Positions 3,790 through 22,583 of a stretch of DNA of 22,583 nucleotides are shown here, piece after piece. This DNA is from Isotricha intestinalis. Lineage: Eukaryota; Ciliophora; Litostomatea; Vestibuliferida; Isotrichidae. The stretch spans positions 1 through 22,583 of the forward strand of contig JAJJLU010000057.1 of the NCBI GenBank assembly GCA_023807065.1. Direction: 5' to 3'. The translations under genes and the position numbers were made by a program. The stretch's first letter is position 1; every line of letters starts with the position of its first letter. The notes beneath the pieces are model-generated. The model was not told the DNA's origin and ran no database searches. It saw only the letters and a program-made list of their open reading frames with translations.

Positions 3790-6700
3790 ATGTCAAAAAG
3801 TCAAAGCATCCGTGTAATATGTCGTATACGTCCAGAAAATGAAAGAGAGAAAGCATCAGGAATGAAAGGATGTATAGATGTATTATCCGAAAACTCATTA
3901 AAAATATATCCATTAGATCAACCAGCAAAAAGTGGTCAAGTGACAAAAGAAGAGCCACATGAGTTTACCTTTGATAGAGTATTTCCAAATACTACTCGTC
4001 AAATTGAAGTATTTGAATTTGCAGCTAAACCATTAATTGATGGAGTTTTTGATGGAATTAATTGTACTTTATTTTGCTATGGACAAACTTCAAGTGGTAA
4101 AACTTTCACAATGGAAGGTATTCATGGAAATGAAGATTTACAAGGGATTATTCCCAGAGCTATGAGATATATTTTCCAAAAAATAACTGAAGTAGAAAAT
4201 GCTGAATGTAGTGTTAAGTGTTCTTATTATCAAATTTATAATGAAAAAATTCAAGATTTGTTAGATCCTAAAAAAAGTGATTTAATTGTTAGAGAAGATA
4301 AAAGAAAAGGAATTTGGGTTGAAGATCTTACTGAAAAATACGTAGCTTCTGTTAAAGATATGCAAGATGCTTTTGCCTTAGGAGCTAGTAATCGTACTGT
4401 CTCTGCTACTCAAATGAATGCTGGATCATCAAGATCTCATTCTTTATTTGTTGTTACTATCTTTCAAAAAAATACTGTTACTGAATCTACAAAAAGTGCT
4501 AAAGTCTTTTTCGTTGATTTAGCAGGAAGTGAAAAAATGAGTAAAACTGGAATTACAGGAGGAATGGGATTAAAGGAAGCACAAAATATTAATAAGAGTT
4601 TAATGGTTCTTGGAATGGTTATTAATGCTTTGACTGAAGGAGCTCAACATATTCCTTATAGAGATAGTAAATTAACTAGAGTTCTTCAAGAAAGTATTGG
4701 AGGAAACAGTCAAACTACACTTATTGTAACTTGTACTAGTAATGGATTAAATCAAAGTGAAAGTTTAAGTACTTTAAGATTTGGACAAAGAGCTAAGTTA
4801 ATTAAGAATAAAGTTGTAGCAAATACTGTGAAAAGTGTTAAAGAATTAATGATTATTATTAAACAATTGGAAGAAAAAATTAAGAAGTTAGAAGCTGCTA
4901 AAGGGAAAATCACTGATGAAGATGATAATAATAATAATGAGAATACTAATAATGATAATAATAATAATAATAATTGTAATAATAATAATGATGGAAAAGA
5001 AGATGTTAAGGTTAAGACAATTGAGAAAATTGTTCAAGTTACTAAATGTGAAAATTGTGAAAAATACATTAATGAATTAATGAATAAAAGAGTTGAAATT
5101 TTGACTTTAACTGAACAAGTAGATGATTTAGAGAAAGATAAAGATGATTTAGAAGTTGAAATAAAAGATAAAGTTCAAGAAATTTATGATTTAAATGAAA
5201 AAGGAAATGAAAATGAAGAAGAGAAGAAAAAAATAATTGAAAAACATGAAGAATTAGTTAAAAATGTTCAAAATACAATGGAAAAAATAAATGAATTTAC
5301 AGATGAGAAAAAAAGAGTAATTGATAAATTAAAAAGTAGTAAGGAAACAGAAGAAATAAATAATGCAATAGATGAATTAGTTAAATTATTTAAAAATGAT
5401 GAAGATAATTGTAAAGAAATTTTAAATATAATTGAAAAAGATGAAAAAGAAAAAGAAATAAAAAATAATAATAATAATATTATAGATTCAATTAATGAAG
5501 ATAATAATTCAAATATGATTGTTTATATAAATAAAGATTCAACACAAGAAGAAATTAAAATTGAAAAAAAAATTTTTGTTGATAAAGAAATAATGACTGA
5601 AGAATTTATTAATGAAAAAGAAAAAATTGAAATTGATGATAAAGTCAAAGAATTAAAAGAAGATAAAGAAATAATTAAACAATTAAATATTGAAAATGAT
5701 CAATTAAAAAGTACAAAAGAAATATTAATTAATGAAAAAAATAATATTGAAAAAGTTTTAAGTCAATTAAATGATAAAGTTAAAGAAATGAATAAAATTA
5801 TTTTTGAAAAAGATGAAAGAATGAAAGAATTAAATTCTAAAAATATTTCTTTAACAAAAAAATTTGAAGATTATAAAAAAACTGTTTTAGAAACAATTTC
5901 TCAAAATGAAAATAATGCTAAAGAATTAATTAATAATATTAAAGTTTTAGAAAGTGAAAATCAAAATCTTAAAAAAGAAATTGATAAAAGGAAAAATATT
6001 ATTTTTTCAATTGATAATCTTGAAAATATTATTTTAAAAGGTAAAGAAAAAATTGAATTGAATTTTGATAATCAAGAACATTTATCAATAAAAAGTTTAG
6101 ATAAACCTATTTTAATATTAAATAATCTTGAAAATATTGAAATAAAAGGAAAAGAAAAGCCTAATTTATCATTCATTATTCAAGAACAATTATCAATTAA
6201 AGAAAAAGATAAACCTAAATTAATAAATCAAAATGTAGAACAATTAATAATTAAAGGTAAAGATAAACCTAAATTAGTAGATCAAAATATAGAGCAATTA
6301 GTAATTAAAGGTAAAGATAAACCTAAATTAATAAATCAAAGTATTGAAAAAATATTAATTAAAGGAAAAGAGAAACCTAAATTAATAAATCAAAATATAG
6401 AACAACTAGTAATTAAAGGAAAAGAGAAAGCAAAATTAATAAATCAAAACATTGAAAAATTTTTAATTAAAGGAAAAGATAAACCTAAACTAATTAATCA
6501 AAATATAGAACAATTAATAATTAAAGGAAAAGAGAAACCTAAACTAATTAATCAAAACATTGAAAAAATATTAATTAAAGGTAAAGATAAACCTAAATTA
6601 ATAAATCAAAATATTGAAAAAATATTAATTAAAGGTAAAGATAAACCTAAATTAATAAATCAAAATATAGAACAACTAGTAATTAAAGGAAAAGATAAAC

Positions 6701-7869
6701 CTAAATTAATAAACCAAAATGTAGAACGATTAATAATTAAAGGTAAAGATAAACCTAAATTAATAAATCAAAACATTGAAAAAATATTAATTAAAAGTAA
6801 AAAGAAACCTAAATTAATAAATCAAAGTATTGAAAAAATATTAATTAAAGGAAAAGAGAAACCTAAATTAATTAATAAAAATATAGAACAATTAATAATT
6901 AAAGGCAAAGATAAACCTAAATTAATAAATCAAAATATTGAAAAAATATTAATTAAAGGTAAAGAAAAACCTAAATTATCATCTCTTCTTTTGGAAAAAA
7001 TATCAATAACAGGAAAAGAAAAACCAGAAATTCATTTATCTTCTCAAATTCAAGAAGATTTGACAATAAAAGGAAAAGAAAAAGAGAAAATAAATTTATT
7101 ATCATCAAAATTAGAAAATATATCAATAAAAGGAAAAGAAAAAGAAGAAAACTCAAAAAAAGAAGAAAAATTAAATATAAATATAAACCAATTACAAATA
7201 TCTCAGAATTTTAATATATCATCAGCACTTAAAAATGAAATTTTAAAATATGAAAAATCAACACAAATTTCAAAAGAAAAATTAGAAAAAATAAATAACA
7301 ACAAAAAGATAAAATTTAGCAATTTAATCTTTTCAGTTCAAAAGAGTTTTTATTTAAAAGGAAGAGAAATGAATAATGAAGATTTAATAAGTCAAATAAG
7401 TAGAAATGAAGATTTATTAAGTATAATAAGTAAGAATGAAGATTTAATGAGTAAAATAAGTTTAAGAAATGAAGATTTTAAATTTGAAACTTTATTAGTT
7501 GAAAAAGATTTAAAAGTAAAAGTAGAATATAGAGAAATAGATAGAAATACATTAGAAGTATTTTTTAAAACTAATAAAGATGAAAACTTAATTTTACATT
7601 GGGGAGTTTCAAAAAATAAAAATTGGTATCATCCTAAGAATGGTTTTATTCCTCCTAACTCAAGAAAATTTGATCAATATTCTATTGATACTCAATTTAT
7701 TATTAATAATAAAAACACAAATGAAAAAATCATACATTTAAATGTTAAAAAAGGGCAAGGTCATTCAAGAATTGATGGATTAAGTTTTGTGTTTTATAAT
7801 CCTTATATTAATAAATGGTATAACAATTATAATCAAGATTATCTTATTAAATTCAGACATGTTCATTAA
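3790..7869 (+). CDS. Kinesin-1-type motor with 18-residue repeats and C-terminal CBM45-like glucan-binding module
   Basis: 1359 residues. The N-terminal motor domain (about 5-345) has the P-loop GQTSSGKT at 98-105, switch I NAGSSRSH at 210-217, switch II DLAGSE at 243-248, the block YRDSKLTRVLQ at 290-300 and the closing FGQRAKLIKN at 331-340, closest in pattern to conventional (kinesin-1) heavy chains. An Asn-rich linker (379-401) leads to coiled coil (about 405-735). Then come 21 copies of an 18-20-residue unit (about 745-1120), a short 10-residue NED repeat (1196-1230), and a C-terminal beta-domain (about 1236-1356). That domain carries LILHWGV at 1267-1273, Trp1279 and NKWY at 1341-1344, the pattern of the CBM45 starch-binding modules of alpha-glucan water dikinases. 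An ATP-driven microtubule motor is certain; glucan cargo binding is inference. The frame is continuous, without a sign of intron or frameshift, and ends in TAA. Confidence 0.95.
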   Translation: MSKSQSIRVICRIRPENEREKASGMKGCIDVLSENSLKIYPLDQPAKSGQVTKEEPHEFTFDRVFPNTTRQIEVFEFAAKPLIDGVFDGINCTLFCYGQTSSGKTFTMEGIHGNEDLQGIIPRAMRYIFQKITEVENAECSVKCSYYQIYNEKIQDLLDPKKSDLIVREDKRKGIWVEDLTEKYVASVKDMQDAFALGASNRTVSATQMNAGSSRSHSLFVVTIFQKNTVTESTKSAKVFFVDLAGSEKMSKTGITGGMGLKEAQNINKSLMVLGMVINALTEGAQHIPYRDSKLTRVLQESIGGNSQTTLIVTCTSNGLNQSESLSTLRFGQRAKLIKNKVVANTVKSVKELMIIIKQLEEKIKKLEAAKGKITDEDDNNNNENTNNDNNNNNNCNNNNDGKEDVKVKTIEKIVQVTKCENCEKYINELMNKRVEILTLTEQVDDLEKDKDDLEVEIKDKVQEIYDLNEKGNENEEEKKKIIEKHEELVKNVQNTMEKINEFTDEKKRVIDKLKSSKETEEINNAIDELVKLFKNDEDNCKEILNIIEKDEKEKEIKNNNNNIIDSINEDNNSNMIVYINKDSTQEEIKIEKKIFVDKEIMTEEFINEKEKIEIDDKVKELKEDKEIIKQLNIENDQLKSTKEILINEKNNIEKVLSQLNDKVKEMNKIIFEKDERMKELNSKNISLTKKFEDYKKTVLETISQNENNAKELINNIKVLESENQNLKKEIDKRKNIIFSIDNLENIILKGKEKIELNFDNQEHLSIKSLDKPILILNNLENIEIKGKEKPNLSFIIQEQLSIKEKDKPKLINQNVEQLIIKGKDKPKLVDQNIEQLVIKGKDKPKLINQSIEKILIKGKEKPKLINQNIEQLVIKGKEKAKLINQNIEKFLIKGKDKPKLINQNIEQLIIKGKEKPKLINQNIEKILIKGKDKPKLINQNIEKILIKGKDKPKLINQNIEQLVIKGKDKPKLINQNVERLIIKGKDKPKLINQNIEKILIKSKKKPKLINQSIEKILIKGKEKPKLINKNIEQLIIKGKDKPKLINQNIEKILIKGKEKPKLSSLLLEKISITGKEKPEIHLSSQIQEDLTIKGKEKEKINLLSSKLENISIKGKEKEENSKKEEKLNININQLQISQNFNISSALKNEILKYEKSTQISKEKLEKINNNKKIKFSNLIFSVQKSFYLKGREMNNEDLISQISRNEDLLSIISKNEDLMSKISLRNEDFKFETLLVEKDLKVKVEYREIDRNTLEVFFKTNKDENLILHWGVSKNKNWYHPKNGFIPPNSRKFDQYSIDTQFIINNKNTNEKIIHLNVKKGQGHSRIDGLSFVFYNPYINKWYNNYNQDYLIKFRHVH
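4924..4992 (+). repeat. AAT-type microsatellite encoding Asn-rich linker in kinesin
   Basis: Nearly pure AAT/GAT triplets encode an Asn-rich stretch at kinesin residues 379-401, between the motor/neck and the coiled coil. It is likely a slippage-prone, disordered spacer. Similar AAT runs encode Asn in the large membrane protein near 10616-10632. Confidence 0.85.
6037..7146 (+). repeat. 54-base coding minisatellite, 18-residue repeats in kinesin
   Basis: The unit is KGKDKPKLINQNIEQLII with small changes. Its lysine-glycine core recurs at residues 750, 768, 786, 804 and every 18 residues to 1074, which is 19 in-register copies; two more at 1094 and 1114 are spaced by 20. The central copies (about 6190-6966) are nearly identical in DNA, alternating between IEQL(I/V)IKGK and IEKILIKGK versions, while the edges are diverged. 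That implies recent expansion by unequal exchange. Alternating hydrophobic and polar residues suggest paired beta strands per repeat. Confidence 0.95.
7495..7857 (+). other. CBM45-like domain at kinesin C-terminus
   Basis: Residues about 1236-1356 of the kinesin. Seen: the ordered landmarks VKVEYRE, LILHWGV, an isolated Trp, a Pro-rich turn (FIPPNS), IDTQF, a beta strand before IDGLSFVFYN, then NKWYNN and a final YLIKF. Family knowledge: this order and the paired aromatics match N-terminal starch-binding modules of alpha-glucan water dikinase (CBM45) and related SBD-type beta-sandwiches. No catalytic part accompanies it. Identification rests on pattern memory, not on a search. Confidence 0.7.
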
Positions 7870-8160: not shown

Positions 8161-11100
8161 ATGTCAAACAATGAAATAGAATTATTTCAAAAAGACAAAT
8201 TAACTTTTATGGAAAAGTTTTATATATTAATGGATTTATTAATAACAAATCAAAAAGCTTCAAAAGTTGAATGTATAATATTTATGGGTGTATCTTATTT
8301 ACAAATTATTGTTGGATTTTTCGCACCACAAATTTTAGTTTTTAAAAAAGACAAATCAACATCCGATAAAATATTATATTATTGTGAAAAAATTTTAAGA
8401 TTATCTTCTCTTTTCTTTGATAAACATTCAGAATTTAAATTAATGATTTATTTTTTTTTTGTATTCATTGTTTTATTTATCATTTATTTTTTAATAATAA
8501 TATCAAAAACCTCAAAAAATTCTTTTTATTCTTATAATGAATTAATTCTTAATTATTCAATTAAAACATTTATTTATTTTGGATTTAATATAATTTTAGA
8601 TTTTATCTTTTCTAATTTTTGTTTTGGAGAAAATGAAATAAATCCTTTTTTTAAAGGAGTTTCATGTAAAATAAGAGATAATTTAGATGTGATAATTATA
8701 TCAATTTTACTATTTATTTTATCAGTAATTGTAATTCTATTTCTTCAATGTTTTTACTGTGATTCAATGTATTTATCAACTTCTTTTTATTCAAGAATAT
8801 CATGTAATTATGAAATTTATTCAAGTATTAATTCAATATTTTTTTCACTGTTTTTAATCCAAGCACATTATTTATCAAAAGAAATTTTTTTATTATATAA
8901 TATTATTTCAAGTGCTATTTTTTTTAAATTTTATATAGATCACTATTTATTTTATGACAAAAATACAAATATTTTAGCAGGTTTATATCATATATTATAT
9001 TTATGGACAAGTATATTTAGTTTAATTTTCGCTTATATAGAATTCCATGAGAAAGGAATAATATATTTAATATCAAGTTCAATAGTATTATATTTATTCT
9101 TTAATTTAAAATATAGAATAGAAGAAAATATATTTTTAGATACTCCCTTTCATAAAATAAGGAATAAAAGTCATTTTTTATATTATTTAAAAAATTTAAT
9201 TGATAAAATGAATCATATTGAAGAAAATCCAGAAGACAGAGCTGTTTTAGCAGGAATTATGGAAATGCATAATATTGAATGTCCTAATCCTGAATGTTTA
9301 GCAAAAAAGAATCAAAAGTTATATTTACCTATTACTGAAGAATGGAGTGATAGAAGTAAATTACTTATTGAAGATAGAGTTTTTCTTATTAATTATATCA
9401 TTATTGTTACTAATTATTTCCTTGATGATAATCATTATTCTCCTGATATGATTATTAATCTTTCTTTATATTATTTAGAAATTATTGGAAATTATTGTCA
9501 AGCTATGTATTATTATAAAAAAGTTAAAGAAATGAAATTAAGTTTTCAAGAACAATTTTCTTTTGAAAGATTAAAAATTAAAATTTCTAAAGCTTTAATT
9601 GAAAAATTTAAAGCACCAAATGAACAATGTACTTCTTTAGAAGATTTAAATGTTACTATATATTTTAAATATGATGATTTATCACAACAATTTATTGAAG
9701 AAATTAATAATGATGTAAATTTATCTTTAGAATTTTGGAAGTCTTTAAAAAATCAATATGTTGATTCAAATAAACAAATAAATTATAATAAAATGTTTAC
9801 TTTAACTGATCATATAAGATTAACTAAAGAAAAAGTAGAAAATTTATGGAATAAATTATTACAAATATATAATGGTGTTAATGACTTATTTGATTTATAT
9901 AGTGAATATGTAGAACAAATAAATGATGATGATTTAAAAAAAAGAGATTTAGATAATTTAAGAAGAAAAAATGAATCTTTTACTGATAATTTAACTCAAA
10001 ATTATTATTCTCTTTTATTTAATAAAGATACTGGTATTATCATTGCTAATGGAGATAAAGGAAAAGAAGGAATAATTGAAAAAATAAATTTAGAAACTGA
10101 AACAATATTCAAATATAAAAATGAAGAATTAAAAGGAAATAATGTAGGTATTTTAATGCCAAAAAATTATGCTTCTCTTCATAAGAAATTTATAGAAAAA
10201 TATTTTAATGTAGGAGAAAAAATTATAATAGATAAAAAAGATTTACGTTCATTAGGAAAAGATAAAGATAATGCAATAATAATGATAAAATTAATAGTAA
10301 AATTATTTCCAATGTTAAATGAAAATGTATTTTTTATTTCTCTTTTTTCAAAAGAAAATATAGATGATATTATATTCATAGATTCGAAATTTATAATTCA
10401 AGGAATGAGTTTAAAATTAATGAAAGAATTAAATATAGATAATAATTTATTATTCCAAGAAAATGATATTCCCTTTTATGTTATTTGCAAAAAATTTGTT
10501 AATTTTTATAAAATATTTCTCAAAGGAAAAAAGCAAAATGTAAAAGAAGTAAAAAATGCAAATTCACTATTAGATTCTTCTTCAGTGAGTAATAATCCTA
10601 AGAATAAGAATAAGAATAATAATAATAATAACTTAAATACAAATATATTAGATGGCTCAATAGTAAATGAGAATTTAGAAGAAAAAGAACATGAAAATAT
10701 AGAAATTAATGAAAATATTGAATTAGAATATGAAATAAGATTACCTCAATTTTTAATAGATTATGCAGAAATAACAAATAAAAAAAATAATTTTGATAGA
10801 GCAAAAACAATAAATTTAGGAGAAATAGATAATATAGAAGAAGAAGATGATAATGTAATAGAATCTGAATTTGGTGAAAGTGATTTATTAGTAGATGATG
10901 ATAGAAATTCATCAATATCAAATATTTCAAAACAGAATAAAGTAAATAAACTAAGTAATATGACTCCAAATAAAAAACCAATAAATAATAAAAATTTAAA
11001 TCTTAACAATAATTTAAATAAAGATACTCCAACTCCAAATATGACTCCAATTCCAGAATTAGTAACTGCAACTCCAGAATATAAAGTAACAATAAATGAT

Positions 11101-13617
11101 AATAAAGAAACAAAAAACCCAAATAATCCTTTAGATAATTCTTATGCTACTCTTTCTCAATCAAAGATAGAATTTAATAAGAAAAATGAAAGAGAGAAAG
11201 AATTTATAGAAAAAATAAAGAAATATAGAAATTTATTTGAATTAGGTAGATTTGATGAATTAGAAGATTATATTGATAATTGTAATGCAGAATCTCAATC
11301 AAGTGATTATAAATTTAATTTTACTTTTGATAGATATAAATATGGGAATAAATATATGTCTTATATAATTAGATGTATTGATAATAAGAATAATTGTAAT
11401 AAAAGTGAAGAAGAAAGTTTAGGTGAAAATGATCCTAAAATTATTAAATATAAAAAAGAAAAAATTGAAGCTATTCAACCTTTATATGAAATATTTGGTG
11501 ATGAGAAAAATAATATTCTTCAACAAGTTAACAATTTTTATTCTTTATCAACTGAAAATAAAAATTTTCAACAAACATTAAATTTATGTAAAGAAGATAT
11601 TAATAAATTAAGTATGGTTCATGGAACTAAAAAAAATGAAATTCAAGATGATGAAAATTCTTCTCAAACTTCTCAATCAGGATTTAACTCTGATTTAGTT
11701 AAAAAAAATAGAATTGAAGAAATAAGAGCTAATTTATTAAATAATGTATCTAATTTTTATACTTTGAAATATATTAAAATTTCAGTTTTTTGTATTTCTG
11801 TATTAACTGTTATTTATGGGATAATTTATTTAATTTTATTTTATGCAATTTTTGATACTTTAACTTTGTCTAATCAATTAAATATAGAATTATTTCAAAC
11901 TACAATTTGGATGACTAATTTAATAGGAACTTTAGTTTCTTTAAGAGCTCTTTTCGATAATATAAATTTGAATCAAAATTATAAATTTAATTCATATATT
12001 GAAGATAATTATGAATATTTTATGGAAATGAAAAAAAATAATTATTTAATATATAATAATATAACAAAATATTTTGGTTCATTGGAATATAATATAGGAA
12101 AATATATTAATAATAAAGAGCAAAATATATATTTTTGGGATAAAGAAAATATAACTTATTATTATAATAGATTAAAAGATTCTGAAGCTTTTCCTTTAGG
12201 TCTTTCTCAAGTTTTAAGTGATATAAATTCTCTTTTAATGAATAAATATTTTAAAATAAATAAAGAAGATGTTTTAATAGATGAACATGTAAGAAGTTAT
12301 ATTCAATTTATTAGTTTTTCATCTATTGAAAATTCATATGATAATATAATACCAAATCAATATTTAAAAATAAAAATAATTCCAAAATTATTTGAAAAAT
12401 CAAATAGTTCATCAAGAATAATATTATTTATTATATTATTAATATATGCTTGTCTAATCGTAACTTTTTGTGTTATTTATTCTCTTTTATTACATTTAAC
12501 AAATGAAAATATGGCTGAAGGAGTAATAAAAGTAACAAAGATAAAATTAGAAAGAATAGAGGAAACAATAAAAAAAATCGAAAATTTTGGTATAAACTTA
12601 AAAAAAATTTCAGAAAAAGATTCTCAAAAATCAGAACATGCATCAGTAAAAAGTAATGTAGAAAATACAATAAATCAAAAAACAATAATGGGAAGTATAA
12701 ATATGAATAATCATTCATTAATAAATCCTTTAGTAATATCAAATGAATATAATATAGAATCAAAAAGAGTAATTCCTTTAAAAATATTAAATTTTTCATA
12801 TTTTCAAACTTTTTTATTATTTTGTATTTTATGTGCATTTGTTATTCCAATATATTTAATAACAAATTCAATGGTAACTTCAACAAATAAATTAATTAAA
12901 GTAGAAAAATTTATGTATGGAAAAATTTTAAGAGCATCAGCTTCAATATTAAAAGTAAAATGTATGATGAATGAATGTAAAATAACAAAAAATTTAGAAT
13001 TTAATGATATTATTGATAAAACTCAAAATCAATTTATTGTTCAAGGAATAAGTTTATTTGATGATTTAAATATTTTTTATAATGATCAATTTTTATTAAA
13101 TGCTTGTAAAGCTATTTTACCTTTTAATTCAAGTGAATATTCTATATGTATGGATGATATTTTAATTCAAAGTGCTAATAATACTGATTCTTTATTAAAA
13201 TTAATTGATGAAATTGTGGATGATTTATATAATGATCAAGTTATTTATAAAGATAATACTTTTACTTTAGATAATGGAACCGAAGTTGAATTTAAGAATT
13301 ATTATTTATTTTCTGCAATTTCTTTTAAAAATTTAGAAACTATTTTTTATAAATATATAATTCCTATTTCTAATAATTTTTCTCAAATTTGTATTGATTC
13401 TTTATATAAGTTATTAAAGCAAAAAAGAAATTATGTGGTTGTTCTTACAATTACTTTTTTCTTTATGGTTATTTTATTATGTGTTTATATTGGTTTTTGC
13501 TTTGTTAATCATCTTATTCATTTATTAAGTGTTTCAAGATGTATTTTAAAAATTATTCCCATTTCTGTTATTAATAATACACAAGAATTGGAAAGTTGGA
13601 TTGAAAACAAATATTAA
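8161..13617 (+). CDS. Large TmcB-like multi-pass membrane protein with PAS-like domain
   Basis: 1818 residues. The N-terminal half holds about seven hydrophobic segments between residues 37 and 316. These are followed by a cytosolic Cys/His block (AGIMEMHNIECPNPEC at 364-379), an alpha-helical region, and a PAS-like domain at about 610-785 (GIIIAN, then KYKNEELKGNNVGILMP and a nearby LHKKF). This order is that of the ciliate and Dictyostelium 'tiny macrocysts' TmcB/TmcC-type proteins. A disordered acidic/Asn-rich stretch (about 800-1000) contains several TP pairs, including NMTP twice, which are potential phosphorylation sites. A second membrane half has hydrophobic segments near 1204-1232, 1240-1265, 1419-1447, 1543-1570 and 1758-1789. 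Its likely role is a plasma- or organelle-membrane sensor; the ligand is unknown. It follows the kinesin after 291 bases of featureless AT-rich DNA. It ends in TAA. Confidence 0.8.
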   Translation: MSNNEIELFQKDKLTFMEKFYILMDLLITNQKASKVECIIFMGVSYLQIIVGFFAPQILVFKKDKSTSDKILYYCEKILRLSSLFFDKHSEFKLMIYFFFVFIVLFIIYFLIIISKTSKNSFYSYNELILNYSIKTFIYFGFNIILDFIFSNFCFGENEINPFFKGVSCKIRDNLDVIIISILLFILSVIVILFLQCFYCDSMYLSTSFYSRISCNYEIYSSINSIFFSLFLIQAHYLSKEIFLLYNIISSAIFFKFYIDHYLFYDKNTNILAGLYHILYLWTSIFSLIFAYIEFHEKGIIYLISSSIVLYLFFNLKYRIEENIFLDTPFHKIRNKSHFLYYLKNLIDKMNHIEENPEDRAVLAGIMEMHNIECPNPECLAKKNQKLYLPITEEWSDRSKLLIEDRVFLINYIIIVTNYFLDDNHYSPDMIINLSLYYLEIIGNYCQAMYYYKKVKEMKLSFQEQFSFERLKIKISKALIEKFKAPNEQCTSLEDLNVTIYFKYDDLSQQFIEEINNDVNLSLEFWKSLKNQYVDSNKQINYNKMFTLTDHIRLTKEKVENLWNKLLQIYNGVNDLFDLYSEYVEQINDDDLKKRDLDNLRRKNESFTDNLTQNYYSLLFNKDTGIIIANGDKGKEGIIEKINLETETIFKYKNEELKGNNVGILMPKNYASLHKKFIEKYFNVGEKIIIDKKDLRSLGKDKDNAIIMIKLIVKLFPMLNENVFFISLFSKENIDDIIFIDSKFIIQGMSLKLMKELNIDNNLLFQENDIPFYVICKKFVNFYKIFLKGKKQNVKEVKNANSLLDSSSVSNNPKNKNKNNNNNNLNTNILDGSIVNENLEEKEHENIEINENIELEYEIRLPQFLIDYAEITNKKNNFDRAKTINLGEIDNIEEEDDNVIESEFGESDLLVDDDRNSSISNISKQNKVNKLSNMTPNKKPINNKNLNLNNNLNKDTPTPNMTPIPELVTATPEYKVTINDNKETKNPNNPLDNSYATLSQSKIEFNKKNEREKEFIEKIKKYRNLFELGRFDELEDYIDNCNAESQSSDYKFNFTFDRYKYGNKYMSYIIRCIDNKNNCNKSEEESLGENDPKIIKYKKEKIEAIQPLYEIFGDEKNNILQQVNNFYSLSTENKNFQQTLNLCKEDINKLSMVHGTKKNEIQDDENSSQTSQSGFNSDLVKKNRIEEIRANLLNNVSNFYTLKYIKISVFCISVLTVIYGIIYLILFYAIFDTLTLSNQLNIELFQTTIWMTNLIGTLVSLRALFDNINLNQNYKFNSYIEDNYEYFMEMKKNNYLIYNNITKYFGSLEYNIGKYINNKEQNIYFWDKENITYYYNRLKDSEAFPLGLSQVLSDINSLLMNKYFKINKEDVLIDEHVRSYIQFISFSSIENSYDNIIPNQYLKIKIIPKLFEKSNSSSRIILFIILLIYACLIVTFCVIYSLLLHLTNENMAEGVIKVTKIKLERIEETIKKIENFGINLKKISEKDSQKSEHASVKSNVENTINQKTIMGSINMNNHSLINPLVISNEYNIESKRVIPLKILNFSYFQTFLLFCILCAFVIPIYLITNSMVTSTNKLIKVEKFMYGKILRASASILKVKCMMNECKITKNLEFNDIIDKTQNQFIVQGISLFDDLNIFYNDQFLLNACKAILPFNSSEYSICMDDILIQSANNTDSLLKLIDEIVDDLYNDQVIYKDNTFTLDNGTEVEFKNYYLFSAISFKNLETIFYKYIIPISNNFSQICIDSLYKLLKQKRNYVVVLTITFFFMVILLCVYIGFCFVNHLIHLLSVSRCILKIIPISVINNTQELESWIENKY

Positions 13618-13931
13618 GTTTTGAGATATTTTATATATTTTAATTATGTAATTATTTTAAATTAAAATAATTTTTAAATTATTTAATAATTATTTTTTCA
13701 TAAAAAACAATTTATTATCATTTATTTTAATTAGGACTTTTATTTCAATTAAATATTATGAGAATAAAATATGTTAACACATTTTAAAAAATATAAAAAA
13801 ACAAATTTTGAATTCTCGTATATTATCATTTTAAATTAATTATACTTATTCATGTTTTATATAGTTATTTTTTTAATTCTATGTGTTTTTTTTAGTTTAT
13901 AATATTTTTATTTAAAGAAAATTATTAATTT
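13618..13931. other. AT-rich intergenic region, nothing recognised
   Basis: 314 bases between the large membrane protein gene and the small C2HC-type gene. It is T- and A-rich with no open frame, RNA structure or repeat that I can support. It presumably holds the terminator of the first gene and the promoter of the next. Confidence 0.5.
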
Positions 13932-14162
13932 ATGGAAGCTAATATGATTTTGTGTAAATGTGGAAAAAGGTTTTATGAATTTGAACTTGAAAATCACTAT
14001 AAATGTTGTAAGGAGTTAAAAAATTATTTTTTATTTTTTGATAAAGAAACAGTTAAACTTTTAAAGGAAAATACACAAGAAAAAGAAAATTTATGTTTAA
14101 TAAAATTCCTTCTTCAACAATATAATAATATTATTGATGAAAAAATACAAAGTTTAAATTAA
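13932..14162 (+). CDS. Small C2HC zinc-finger-like protein
   Basis: 76 residues from an ATG. The N-terminal part reads LCKCGKRFYEFELENHYKCC, giving Cys8, Cys10, His22 and Cys25/Cys26. This resembles the C2HC fingers (CxxCGRxF..H...C) and TRAF-type fingers, but the first pair is separated by one residue instead of two, so metal binding is uncertain. The remainder is Lys/Glu-rich and probably helical. The codon composition matches the neighbours. It may be a complete small protein or the surviving start of a longer gene, because a second short ORF follows 19 bases after the stop. It ends in TAA. Confidence 0.5.
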   Translation: MEANMILCKCGKRFYEFELENHYKCCKELKNYFLFFDKETVKLLKENTQEKENLCLIKFLLQQYNNIIDEKIQSLN

Positions 14163-14375: not shown

Positions 14376-16115
14376 TCAAATTAATTGTTTTAATATTCCT
14401 AAATAATCATTTAAAATTTCCTTTTCTTTTTTAACTTCCATATCACAAAAAGCTTTGAAAACAATTCCTTTAGTAACATTTTTTTCAGTAATAATATTTT
14501 TAAAACTCTCAATGAATTTTTCAAAAGCAATTTTATTCTTCTCATCATGATAGCAAGAAAATTGAAATTCAATATCAGCAAATAAACAAGCTAAAAACTG
14601 TATTAAAAATTTAATATAAACATTTCCTCCAAAAACACCACAACCCCATTTTCCAGTAGAACAAGAATTTAATTTTAAATCAGCATTTCCTTGTAATCCA
14701 GTTATGAATTTAATAAACTCTCTGAAACTAACAATAAAATCAAATTGATCACATTTAAGTTGAAAAATAGGTAAAGCATCAACTGCAATCATAAGTGATT
14801 TAAAAGAATTATTTTCATAAATACGATTATCATGATAATCTCCTTTAAACTTTAAGCTTCCTCCATATCCAGTATAATCACTAAATTGTTCAAAGCCTGA
14901 CATTGATATTGATTGAATATTATTCATTTTTTTTACAAATGCTCTTGCTACTAAAATTTCAGGACATATTAATAATAATATTTCTTCTTGAACACTTCCT
15001 CTATTCATACATCCTCCTCCTAAATATTTATTTGCAAAATTTACGATTATACTTTCTTTTTCTTCCGTCATTGATAATAAATGAATTTTTACTTTTTCTA
15101 TTATTTCTTTATTTATTTTTTCATTGTTTTTAATAAATACTTCTTCTTTTATTTTTTTCACCATTTTATCTTCATTAGGTTTTAATTCGCTTTTTAAAAA
15201 AAGTTTAATTTCATTATTTAATTCATTATTCATTTCGTTTTTTTTAAATTGATTTTCATTTAAGTTTTTATTATAAATATAAGGATCAAATTCATTTAAA
15301 TGTATTTTTAAAATACTATTTCTTTGGCAATCAAAATCATTATTTAATTCTTTATCAAAATTATATATTTCATTGAATTTATCTTTATAATCTTTAACTT
15401 TATTTAAAATATCTTCTTTTGAAGAAATAAAACTACAATGTTCAACTTTAGAAAGTTTATTTTGAGAAGCCATTCTAATTCCAATTTTAATAAAATATCT
15501 AATCATAAATAAAAATTTTTCATAAAGAATTCCATTTCCCATTAAATAATAAATAAAACTTAATTCAGGAAAATCATAAATCTTATAATTACCATTTTCT
15601 AATTCTTTAATATTTCTTCCTTCTGTTTCATTTCCAAACATATCTAAAAAAAAAGTTGAAAGAATCGAAGCACATTCAAATTGAGTTAATTCAATTATTT
15701 CATTATTATTGTTTGTTAACAGAAAAAAATCTTTTTTTATTTCTTCTGATGTTAATGCTATTGATTGAATTAATGGTAAAATAAAATCAAATATTGCTTC
15801 TTTACTTATTTGATTTTTTAATCTTTCAAAATTATTTATTGTTTTCGTTTTAAGATCTTTATTTATGTTAAATAATTCGGAATAATCTGCTTCTGTATAT
15901 TTTTTTTTTAATATTTTTTTTGCTTTTTCCCAATTTTTTGATTTCCAAATTCCAACATATTTACTTTTTATATTCTTTTTTTTTTTTAAATTATTATTTT
16001 CTTTGACTTCTTTTTTAATGTTTGGATTTTTATTAATAATAGTTACCTTTTTTTTATTATCACTCGTTTTTTTTATATTAGATGAACTACTTCCCATATT
16101 ATAATTTTTATTCAT
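14376..16115 (-). CDS. PARG: Poly(ADP-ribose) glycohydrolase
   Basis: 579 residues. It hydrolyses poly(ADP-ribose) chains made by PARPs, mainly in DNA-damage signalling. A Lys/Asn-rich N-terminus (1-55) precedes a helical accessory region (about 60-345) and the macrodomain-type catalytic core (about 350-525). The PARG signature is present: FANKYLGGG at 360-368 and SVQEEI at 374-379, with the catalytic Glu pair Glu377/Glu378. FEQFSDYTGYGGS at 408-420 matches the substrate-binding Tyr loop, and GKWGCGVFGG at 488-497 the C-terminal glycine loop. The residue 18 before the first Glu, usually Asp in PARG, is Asn359 (AAT), which may reduce activity. The first ATG is used here; a second at 16097 would give MGSSSSNIKK, a good N-myristoylation motif. 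It ends in TGA and is convergent with the small genes to the left. Confidence 0.92.
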   Translation of the reverse strand: MNKNYNMGSSSSNIKKTSDNKKKVTIINKNPNIKKEVKENNNLKKKKNIKSKYVGIWKSKNWEKAKKILKKKYTEADYSELFNINKDLKTKTINNFERLKNQISKEAIFDFILPLIQSIALTSEEIKKDFFLLTNNNNEIIELTQFECASILSTFFLDMFGNETEGRNIKELENGNYKIYDFPELSFIYYLMGNGILYEKFLFMIRYFIKIGIRMASQNKLSKVEHCSFISSKEDILNKVKDYKDKFNEIYNFDKELNNDFDCQRNSILKIHLNEFDPYIYNKNLNENQFKKNEMNNELNNEIKLFLKSELKPNEDKMVKKIKEEVFIKNNEKINKEIIEKVKIHLLSMTEEKESIIVNFANKYLGGGCMNRGSVQEEILLLICPEILVARAFVKKMNNIQSISMSGFEQFSDYTGYGGSLKFKGDYHDNRIYENNSFKSLMIAVDALPIFQLKCDQFDFIVSFREFIKFITGLQGNADLKLNSCSTGKWGCGVFGGNVYIKFLIQFLACLFADIEFQFSCYHDEKNKIAFEKFIESFKNIITEKNVTKGIVFKAFCDMEVKKEKEILNDYLGILKQLI

Positions 16116-18105: not shown

Positions 18106-20268
18106 TTAAATATTTATTTCAAATAAAGAAGAAACTGGTCTATGATCTGAAATAAGTACATCAATATCATCATAAAATATTTGATTTATATAATTTCCTT
18201 TTGAATTACCAAATAATATTCTATCTGTCCATGAAGGAATTCTTTTTTTTAAATCATAATTATTTGAATTTTTAATATATTTAAAAGTAGGTAAAAAATT
18301 AATTTTACCTTCATTTATCTTTTTATTATTAGATAAAAATATGTGTAATTCATCAGATAAAAATAAAGTGTCTTTAATATTTAATAAATTATTTTTATCA
18401 ATATAATCTTGTTTAGATATATTATCTTTATGAATTTTAATTCTAAAATTTAAATCGCCAAAAATAAAATAAAAGTCATTTAATAAATATTCAGGTCTTT
18501 TTGAATTGGAAAAATAAGTAGTTAAAATACTATTTAATTCATTTTGTCTTTGAGTTAAATTTTCTTTATTTTCTCCTGCAGTAAGGTGTCCTGTTGTAAA
18601 AACAAAGTATTTATTTTTAAAATTAAATTGTAACATTAAATAACCTTTATTTCCACTTAAACCAATAAATCCAGTTTTACAAAATGAAACATTAATTTCT
18701 GAAATTAAAGGTATTAAAGGAGTTTTCACATAAAATAAAAATAATACTCCTACCATATGTTCTTTATATAATAATTGGAATTGATATTTAGAAAAAAGAG
18801 TTTTTGAAATTTTATCTGATAAACTATTAATTAAAGAATTATTTGATTTAAAAAAAACATTTGATACATTTAATTCAACAATTTCTTGAAAACCTATACA
18901 AATAAAATCAGGTGAAAATTCTTTTGTGAAATATTTTTTATGTTTTTCAGGAAATAATATACTTTCTATATTTAAATCAGATAAATTTTGAGCTGCAATA
19001 TTATAGGTTAATATATATATACTTAGTTTATTTATATTTTCTATTTTTGAAGTTATATGATTAAAAGTTGTTATATTTGAATTTATTCTTTCATCTATTA
19101 AACGAAAGCTTTCTAATCTTTTTAAAGATATTTTATACATTTTAATTATTGTTTTTAAAAGTTCATTAAATCTTATATTATTAATTATTTCTTTATTTGT
19201 TATTTTTTTTCCTTTTTCTTGATTAAATAAATTATAATACGTATTAGAAACCCCAATATTATAATTATTAAAACATAATAATATATTTTCATTTATTATT
19301 TTTTCAAGAATATTTACCATTTCTTCATAACCTGAAGTTATTATTATACAACCTACTTTTTGAATTGAATCTTCTTCTTTATAAAACATAGATGAAAAAT
19401 AATTTGTTGATTTTTTATAATTAAATCCTATATTTAATAAATTTTCAATTGGAATATTTATATTGTTTTCATCTAATATAACTGTTAAATTTTCTTCTTT
19501 TGTTTTTTCATCTATTAAATTTAAATTATTTGTAAAAATTATTATATTTGATTGAAAATTTAATAAATCTATTAACTCATTATTAAATTTTTTTGACAAA
19601 TGATTATCATATGTAGAATAAACTTTAAAACTAAAACTATCTCCATTACTTAAATTATATAATATTTTTGTTTTATATATTTCATAATTTTTTAAAAAGA
19701 TATTTTTCTTTGAAATAAAATAAAATAAAAATTCATATCCATAAAATTTCATATTAAAAAAGCCAATATGACCTTGAATACATTTACAATAATAATATTT
19801 TAAATTATCATTTTCTATAAAAGCATTTAACATATCATAATTATATAAATATTTATCATCTTTGTTACTTAAATCCAAAATATAAGAAAAAAAAATAGAA
19901 GATTGAATAATTGTGTTAGAATAATTTTTAAAATTTTCTTCAATTTCAATTTCTTTTTGATTATTATAATCCTTGTTTAAAATAATATAATTTAATTTTT
20001 CAATTTTATATATTTGTCCTAAGCCATTAGTATAATCAAATACTTTTGAAATTATAATTAAACAAGGAATTAAACTAATATTTATTATTCCCATTATTCC
20101 ATATATTTCTTTTTTATTATTTAATGAAATTAAATTTGAAGTTTGTTCATTTAATAATATTATTTCTGAATTTATCTTTGAAATTGATAAAACTAATTTA
20201 TTCTTTAATTTTAAGTTTTCAATGTAAATATAATTCTCATCTTCTGAGTAATTATATATTAATGACAT
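18106..20268 (-). CDS. Synaptojanin-like SAC plus inositol polyphosphate 5-phosphatase
   Basis: 720 residues. The N-terminal half (about 20-340) is a SAC-type domain, recognised by KEIYGIMGIINISLIPCLII at 53-72, the QIYKIE strand and an IQGHIGF segment at 164-170. The catalytic CX5R(T/S) of SAC phosphatases is absent, so this half is probably a non-catalytic lipid-binding or regulatory module. The C-terminal half (about 415-720) is an inositol 5-phosphatase with the usual motifs in order: TYNI at 421-424, GFQEI at 459-463 (metal-binding Glu462), TGHLTAGE at 559-566, FGDLNFRI at 603-610, PSWTDRIL at 678-685 and SDHRPV at 707-712. It should remove the 5-phosphate from PI(4,5)P2/PIP3-type lipids at membranes, acting in endocytosis or phagocytosis. 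No Pro-rich tail follows. It ends in TAA. Confidence 0.92.
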   Translation of the reverse strand: MSLIYNYSEDENYIYIENLKLKNKLVLSISKINSEIILLNEQTSNLISLNNKKEIYGIMGIINISLIPCLIIISKVFDYTNGLGQIYKIEKLNYIILNKDYNNQKEIEIEENFKNYSNTIIQSSIFFSYILDLSNKDDKYLYNYDMLNAFIENDNLKYYYCKCIQGHIGFFNMKFYGYEFLFYFISKKNIFLKNYEIYKTKILYNLSNGDSFSFKVYSTYDNHLSKKFNNELIDLLNFQSNIIIFTNNLNLIDEKTKEENLTVILDENNINIPIENLLNIGFNYKKSTNYFSSMFYKEEDSIQKVGCIIITSGYEEMVNILEKIINENILLCFNNYNIGVSNTYYNLFNQEKGKKITNKEIINNIRFNELLKTIIKMYKISLKRLESFRLIDERINSNITTFNHITSKIENINKLSIYILTYNIAAQNLSDLNIESILFPEKHKKYFTKEFSPDFICIGFQEIVELNVSNVFFKSNNSLINSLSDKISKTLFSKYQFQLLYKEHMVGVLFLFYVKTPLIPLISEINVSFCKTGFIGLSGNKGYLMLQFNFKNKYFVFTTGHLTAGENKENLTQRQNELNSILTTYFSNSKRPEYLLNDFYFIFGDLNFRIKIHKDNISKQDYIDKNNLLNIKDTLFLSDELHIFLSNNKKINEGKINFLPTFKYIKNSNNYDLKKRIPSWTDRILFGNSKGNYINQIFYDDIDVLISDHRPVSSLFEINI

Positions 20269-20983: not shown

Positions 20984-21331
20984 TTATAAATAAAAAAATC
21001 CCGCTAGTTCTTTATGATTCCACAAAGGAACAACTTGATTACATAAATCTAAATCAAAATCATTTTCCAAAACAATATTATCAACATATTCAATGGATTT
21101 ATCACTTTCAACTTTACCAATAATTTTTAAGAAAGTTCCTTCATCAAATTTTTGATTAAATCCATTAATTAATATTTCAATATTAGTTGAAGGATTAACT
21201 AATAAAGACAGAGTATTGTTATTTATACTTTGAACTTTTCCATGAATAATCACATATTGATTTATAAAATGCTGAATATTTGTATCATTAATTAAAGGTA
21301 AAGGACTTTTCCAATAATCAACTGAAGACAT
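20984..21331 (-). CDS. RPA3: Replication protein A small subunit (RPA3/RPA14-like)
   Basis: 115 residues, the usual size for the family. A single OB-fold is suggested: an N-terminal approach helix (NIQHFINQ), strands YVIIHGKVQSI, TLSLLVN, IEILINGF, LKIIGKVES and IEYVDNIVLE, then the C-terminal helix that packs in the RPA trimer, beginning FDLDLCNQVV at 92-101. That FDL-L-N motif plus the GK-V strand pair is the best identifier. It would form the structural core of the ssDNA-binding RPA heterotrimer in replication and repair. Cysteines are few and no other domain is present. It ends in TAA. The start context is A/T-rich with no alternative upstream ATG in frame nearby. Confidence 0.83.
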   Translation of the reverse strand: MSSVDYWKSPLPLINDTNIQHFINQYVIIHGKVQSINNNTLSLLVNPSTNIEILINGFNQKFDEGTFLKIIGKVESDKSIEYVDNIVLENDFDLDLCNQVVPLWNHKELAGFFYL

Positions 21332-22559: not shown

Positions 22560-22583
22560 ATTGGGGATTGGGGATTGGGGATT
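22560..22583. repeat. Right telomere, ATTGGGG repeats
   Basis: Three full ATTGGGG units and a partial ATT end the window, the reverse complement of the left-end CCCCAAT. No variant unit is seen in this short stretch. The subtelomere between 22315 and 22559 is AT-rich with a long T tract at 22320-22337 and no gene that I can support. Confidence 0.95.

Follow-up and report, generated by a model that had tools for sequence, protein, structure and literature searches.

A kinesin-1-like protein of Isotricha intestinalis with a predicted C-terminal CBM45-type module: a candidate motor or tether for amylopectin granules

Kinesin cargo generally consists of membranes, protein complexes or RNA, attached through adaptors. 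The closest described precedent for a kinesin carrying a domain of a family associated with carbohydrate binding is that of the plant malectin-domain kinesins MDKIN1 and MDKIN2, which are reported to be kinesin-14 proteins with an N-terminal malectin domain and roles in cell division and development (PMC7094084). Here we describe a gene of the ciliate Isotricha intestinalis whose product is also a kinesin, but of kinesin-1-like type and with a predicted module of the CBM45 type at its C-terminus. The gene lies in a window of 22,583 bases, the entire contig JAJJLU010000057.1 (C57) of assembly GCA_023807065.1, where it occupies positions 3790-7869 of the forward strand as an uninterrupted, intron-free open reading frame (ORF) of 1359 amino acids ending in TAA; the standard code applies, and reading TAA or TAG as glutamine is unnecessary. 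No malectin domain was listed for the protein in a Pfam scan at E <= 1. An earlier note, made from the sequence alone, had read it as a kinesin-1-type motor with an alpha-glucan-binding module that could tether engulfed starch or stored amylopectin to microtubules.

Residues 12-338 (3823-4803, forward strand) match the kinesin motor family PF00225 above the Pfam cut-off, with E 9.8e-108. The nucleotide-binding motifs are intact (P-loop GQTSSGKT at residues 98-105, NAGSSR at 210 and DLAGSE at 243-248), so that the protein combines the PF00225 match with the P-loop, switch I and switch II motifs that define the kinesin superfamily. When the motor was compared with solved structures, kinesin heavy chain and kinesin-1 chains were the top matches (1goj, E 5.9e-97). 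Its closest paralogue in the same genome, C389, is an ordinary kinesin of 945 residues that is 81% identical in the motor, and the kinesin-1 type proposed in the earlier note is thus borne out. Across the kinesin-1-like heavy chains, C389 and the database relatives P0080-P0091, the N-terminal motor is 79-81% identical to that of the window kinesin; for one of these relatives, the source gives the name kinesin family protein 5. In a tree of 27 motors, the window kinesin groups with C389, P0080-P0083, P0085 and P0091 at a support of 89/91, which is below the star threshold of the tool; its branch is long (0.36), and the tool flags its placement as unsure. Elsewhere in the assembly, contig C1297 bears two equal-scoring kinesin copies on opposite strands (720-1613, forward; 13210-14103, reverse), the pattern of an inverted duplication or of a palindrome in the assembly.

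Beyond the motor, the stalk (residues ~345-735; 4822-5994, forward strand) can be aligned with that of C389, with identity falling along its length, and by homology it is probably a dimerising coiled coil. Counted per 40 residues, identical positions number 25-39 in the motor, 6-23 in the stalk and 5-10 beyond residue 760, down to residue 920. BLAST alignments of the kinesin end at residue 738 with a second paralogue, C961, and with P0098, and at residue 727 with P0096, while that with C389 continues at low identity to residue 903. The homology appears to have no sharp end, and we would place the exchange of the tail near residues 735-760.

The presumed exchange is reflected in a motif. Heavy chains of the C389 type have a tail with [IML]K.[IV][RKT]G, in contrast to the 18-residue repeats and CBM45-type module of the window kinesin. 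Among the matches listed, drawn from the best 120 of 7982 scored motor relatives, the motif occurs in the last quarter of 113 of the 117 unfused proteins; it is also present in the kinesin's own paralogues C389 and C961. It is absent from the window kinesin and from three database proteins with the same fusion (P0002-P0004). The pattern was widened after inspection of the tails missed by an initial, stricter pattern, which matched 22 of the 117 relatives; as a control, the widened pattern matched 22 of 4000 shuffled ends (100 shuffles for each of the first 40 matches). Because the relatives and both paralogues carry the motif and the fused proteins do not, a kinesin-1-like heavy chain has apparently swapped its usual tail for a repeat array and a CBM45-type module. 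We presume that the ciliate motif resembles the IAK autoinhibition motif of kinesin-1.

The C-terminal domain (residues 1235-1355; 7492-7854, forward strand) matches PF23166, the N-terminal domain of glucan water dikinase (GWD), an enzyme that phosphorylates starch, with E 1.2e-15 and 58.2 bits in a search of the whole protein. Pfam, which the earlier note had named as a check on this domain, gave E 7.4e-18 and 65.3 bits for the last 134 residues alone; the curated cut-off is 27 bits. The signature reported for CBM45 consists of five aromatic residues, W, W, F, W and F. All five positions are filled in the kinesin, by W1271, W1279, F1333, W1343 and Y1351 (spanning 7600-7842, forward strand), and the segments from which the note had recognised the module, LILHWGV (1267-1273), W1279 and NKWY (1341-1344), lie where it had placed them. 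Neither the profile nor, as far as it is informative, the fold indicates an unrelated family. The case for assigning the domain to the GWD/CBM45 alpha-glucan-binding family is strong at the level of sequence, and the earlier proposal of such a module stands as one of family membership only. Equating PF23166 with CBM45 would follow from the position of the domain in GWD1 and from the aromatic signature, the alignment itself containing no plant GWD. An NCBIfam search gave no match.

Several observations weigh against our reading of the protein as a granule-binding kinesin. The fifth aromatic residue is tyrosine rather than phenylalanine, as it is in 37 of 80 aligned domains, and the first two aromatic spacings are 8 and 54 in the kinesin versus 10 and 45 in potato. 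Solved structures yielded no match at E <= 10 when searched with the sequence of the domain, and a single one, an unrelated protein at E 0.62, in an alignment-based search. By fold, the matches that follow the isoamylases are a mixture of glucan-binding modules and unrelated sandwiches. This beta-sandwich might then have been re-used for protein docking, with a protein or vesicle instead of glucan as cargo; beside the PF23166 match and the five aromatic positions, we hold this to be quite unlikely. The fusion has, moreover, been seen so far in one lineage only, 117 of the best 120 motor relatives lacking PF23166. Finally, potato CBM45-2 is a weak binder, with reported Kd values of 0.38 and 0.68 mM for beta-cyclodextrin (PMC6243121). 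Since lone CBM45 modules bind weakly, a single pair of modules may grip a granule poorly.

Weak binding also admits a sensory role, in which the module, bound to soluble malto-oligosaccharides or to glucan at the surface of a granule, would switch the motor in place of the tail. The same review proposes that low CBM45 affinity permits dynamic control in GWD1 (PMC6243121), and all four versions of the kinesin lack the usual tail motif, so that tail-based autoinhibition would be absent or different. A long spacer, however, separates the module from the motor in the sequence, and we give glucan sensing little credence.

The fusion is not peculiar to the window. The three database proteins P0002-P0004 (1197, 1233 and 1249 amino acids) come from separate contigs of 5.2, 7.7 and 12.1 kb. 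Compared with the window kinesin, none of them differs in residues 1-345 or in residues 1232-1359, against 1-5 changes in residues 346-745, 2-13 in the repeat zone and 0-2 in the spacer. By one and the same pattern we counted 16 repeat units in the window kinesin and 7, 8 and 10 in the database versions. The number of repeats thus varies while the motor and module ends stay unchanged. Repeat arrays are prone to misassembly, and an error of assembly or gene calling could in principle have joined a kinesin to a GWD-like piece. Yet three further proteins from other contigs have the same fusion with differing repeat numbers and scattered substitutions, the reading frame is single and without stops, and the module is just 36-43% identical to seven other aligned domains of the same genome. 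An artefact is thereby rendered exceedingly improbable and was rejected, since three additional proteins share the fusion.

The repeat array itself (residues 767-1072; 6088-7005, forward strand) has a unit of 54 bp, or 18 amino acids, in version-dependent copy number. The earlier note had noticed neither this array, nor the missing tail motif, nor that the window is a whole chromosome. The unit has no other match at E <= 0.001 across the 57.3 Mb assembly that contains the window. Codon differences among 14 repeat units comprise 192 synonymous and 345 nonsynonymous changes, versus 3030 and 16970 among random single changes; this suggests an excess of silent changes, with the reservations of a crude control and of pairs that depend on one another. 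For residues 743-1087, AlphaFold2 run without an alignment predicted a beta-solenoid, with a best pLDDT of 76 and one of five models at 29, and no solved structure matched this prediction at E <= 0.001. AlphaFold2 has been reported to give unrealistic beta-solenoids for perfect repeats (PMC11795689), and we therefore put no weight on the model. A short 30-bp tandem repeat (7375-7478, forward strand) directly precedes the C-terminal domain.

Such a spacer would suit a static tether, in which a slow or non-processive motor keeps amylopectin platelets fixed to microtubules of the cortex, in skeletal plates for instance, instead of hauling them; that the repeats range from 7 to 16 units between a constant motor and a constant module fits this idea. 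The motor, however, retains its nucleotide-binding motifs and is kinesin-1-like, and skeletal plates are not known from all rumen ciliates. A purely static tether is possible but, in our judgement, unlikely.

Within the assembly, PF23166 occurs in nine places, of which six belong to GWDs, two to short acidic proteins and one to the window kinesin. None of 14 control genomes gave a match. No other kinesin of the assembly was seen to carry the domain, its nine places coinciding only in the window with any of the 115 places that match kinesin (a count that takes exon pieces and fragments singly). CBM20 was found within a kinesin ORF at none of its 30 places, as judged by eye from contigs and coordinates. 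A search with the kinesin's own PF23166 domain returned 3 of 48 candidates. A search with a GWD domain gave 74 matches among 309 candidates and no kinesin; it missed P0002-P0004 as well, and is therefore insensitive to fusions of this kind. Thus the search for further fusions that the earlier note had proposed brought three more database proteins and none in other species, where intron-bearing genes or more diverged motors could have escaped it and where the genomes searched included no relative of this one.

What glucan might such a kinesin hold? The six GWDs are encoded by ORFs of 1072-1200 amino acids (C800, C132, C1211, C978, C1152 and C2049), and all six also have the GWD phosphohistidine and PPDK_N domains, which identifies them as GWDs by Pfam. 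There are three full-length phosphorylase matches plus two fragments, and nine matches to starch synthases of family GT5, of which one is partial and another is interrupted by a stop; the glycogen synthase family GT3 has no match in the assembly. Because GT5, phosphorylase and GWD genes are present and GT3 was not found, the reserve glucan would be of the starch type, and probably cytosolic. The 30 CBM20 matches (e.g. C1293:24519-24713 and C1598:17229-17408) form a large family and include one in an open frame of 6164 amino acids and one in a frame of 1931, the printed parts of both being rich in K, E and N. Three of the GWDs (C978, C1152 and C2049) have long K/E-rich inserts within the CBM45-type domain. 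The two acidic proteins (C557, 736-1659 of locus L027; C1079:3534-3863) are nearly identical, about 308 amino acids long, and have KPVEEVTKEEE repeats with the CBM45-type domain at the extreme C-terminus; they are possible glucan scaffolds.

The kinesin begins straight at its motor and, judged by eye, has no room for a secretion signal. Engulfed starch is presumably enclosed by membrane, where a cytosolic motor could not reach it. Of the two cargoes in the earlier note, we therefore drop engulfed starch, as presumably vacuolar, and keep storage amylopectin as plausible. We infer dimerisation, glucan binding, a cytosolic-granule cargo, and transport or positioning as the elements of a mechanism. 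A cytosolic kinesin with an N-terminal motor would have arisen from a ciliate kinesin-1-like heavy chain whose C-terminal cargo and regulatory tail was replaced by a variable repeat spacer and a CBM45-type module such as the cell's own GWDs possess. Motor and stalk would form a dimer; its two weak modules, on their repeat spacers, would grip the granule surface, several motors per granule would lend avidity, and the heads would walk or sit on microtubules. Cytosolic amylopectin granules might thus be moved or positioned directly, without a membrane adaptor. That the protein is a motor or tether attaching cytosolic amylopectin-like granules directly to microtubules seems to us rather probable. 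The broader proposition, that a polysaccharide-binding module serves as the cargo receptor and that insoluble storage-glucan granules, gripped without an intervening membrane, form a direct class of kinesin cargo, we regard as evenly balanced.

With CCCCAAT-type telomere repeats at both ends (positions 1-40, and in complement at 22560-22583), the window represents a whole macronuclear chromosome; (CCCCAAT)n is also the putative telomeric repeat of the rumen ciliate Entodinium caudatum (PMC6211341). Its G+C content is low, at 14-30% per 1 kb. Pfam places a calpain-type protease at 1004-2884, PARG at 14376-16115, Exo_endo_phos2 at 18106-20268 and Rep_fac-A_3 at 20984-21331, and a long ORF at 8161-13617 has a TmcB-TPR match below the cut-off. 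No glucan-related gene was seen among the seven neighbours scanned with Pfam.

In conclusion, the earlier note knew of no described kinesin of this architecture, and we saw none in the titles and abstract openings of the open-licence papers listed; among open-licence papers, none was found that brings together ciliates, the rumen and water dikinase. With GWD1 the window kinesin has in common the Pfam domain and the aromatic signature. In the GWDs of this genome the domain is N-terminal and precedes the dikinase domains, whereas in the kinesin it is C-terminal and no dikinase domain is present. In function, the role proposed here recalls that of mammalian STBD1, a non-enzymatic CBM20 protein that likewise ties alpha-glucan to a cell system; unlike the kinesin, STBD1 is reported to be a membrane protein implicated in glycogen autophagy, and it presumably has no motor. 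If our proposal is correct, carbohydrate granules would join the classes of kinesin cargo, bound by the motor's own module, and starch-storing ciliates might place their reserve granules with a dedicated machine. The gene would also be a natural case of a cargo domain gained in place of the kinesin-1 tail, for which the genome's own ordinary paralogue serves as a control.

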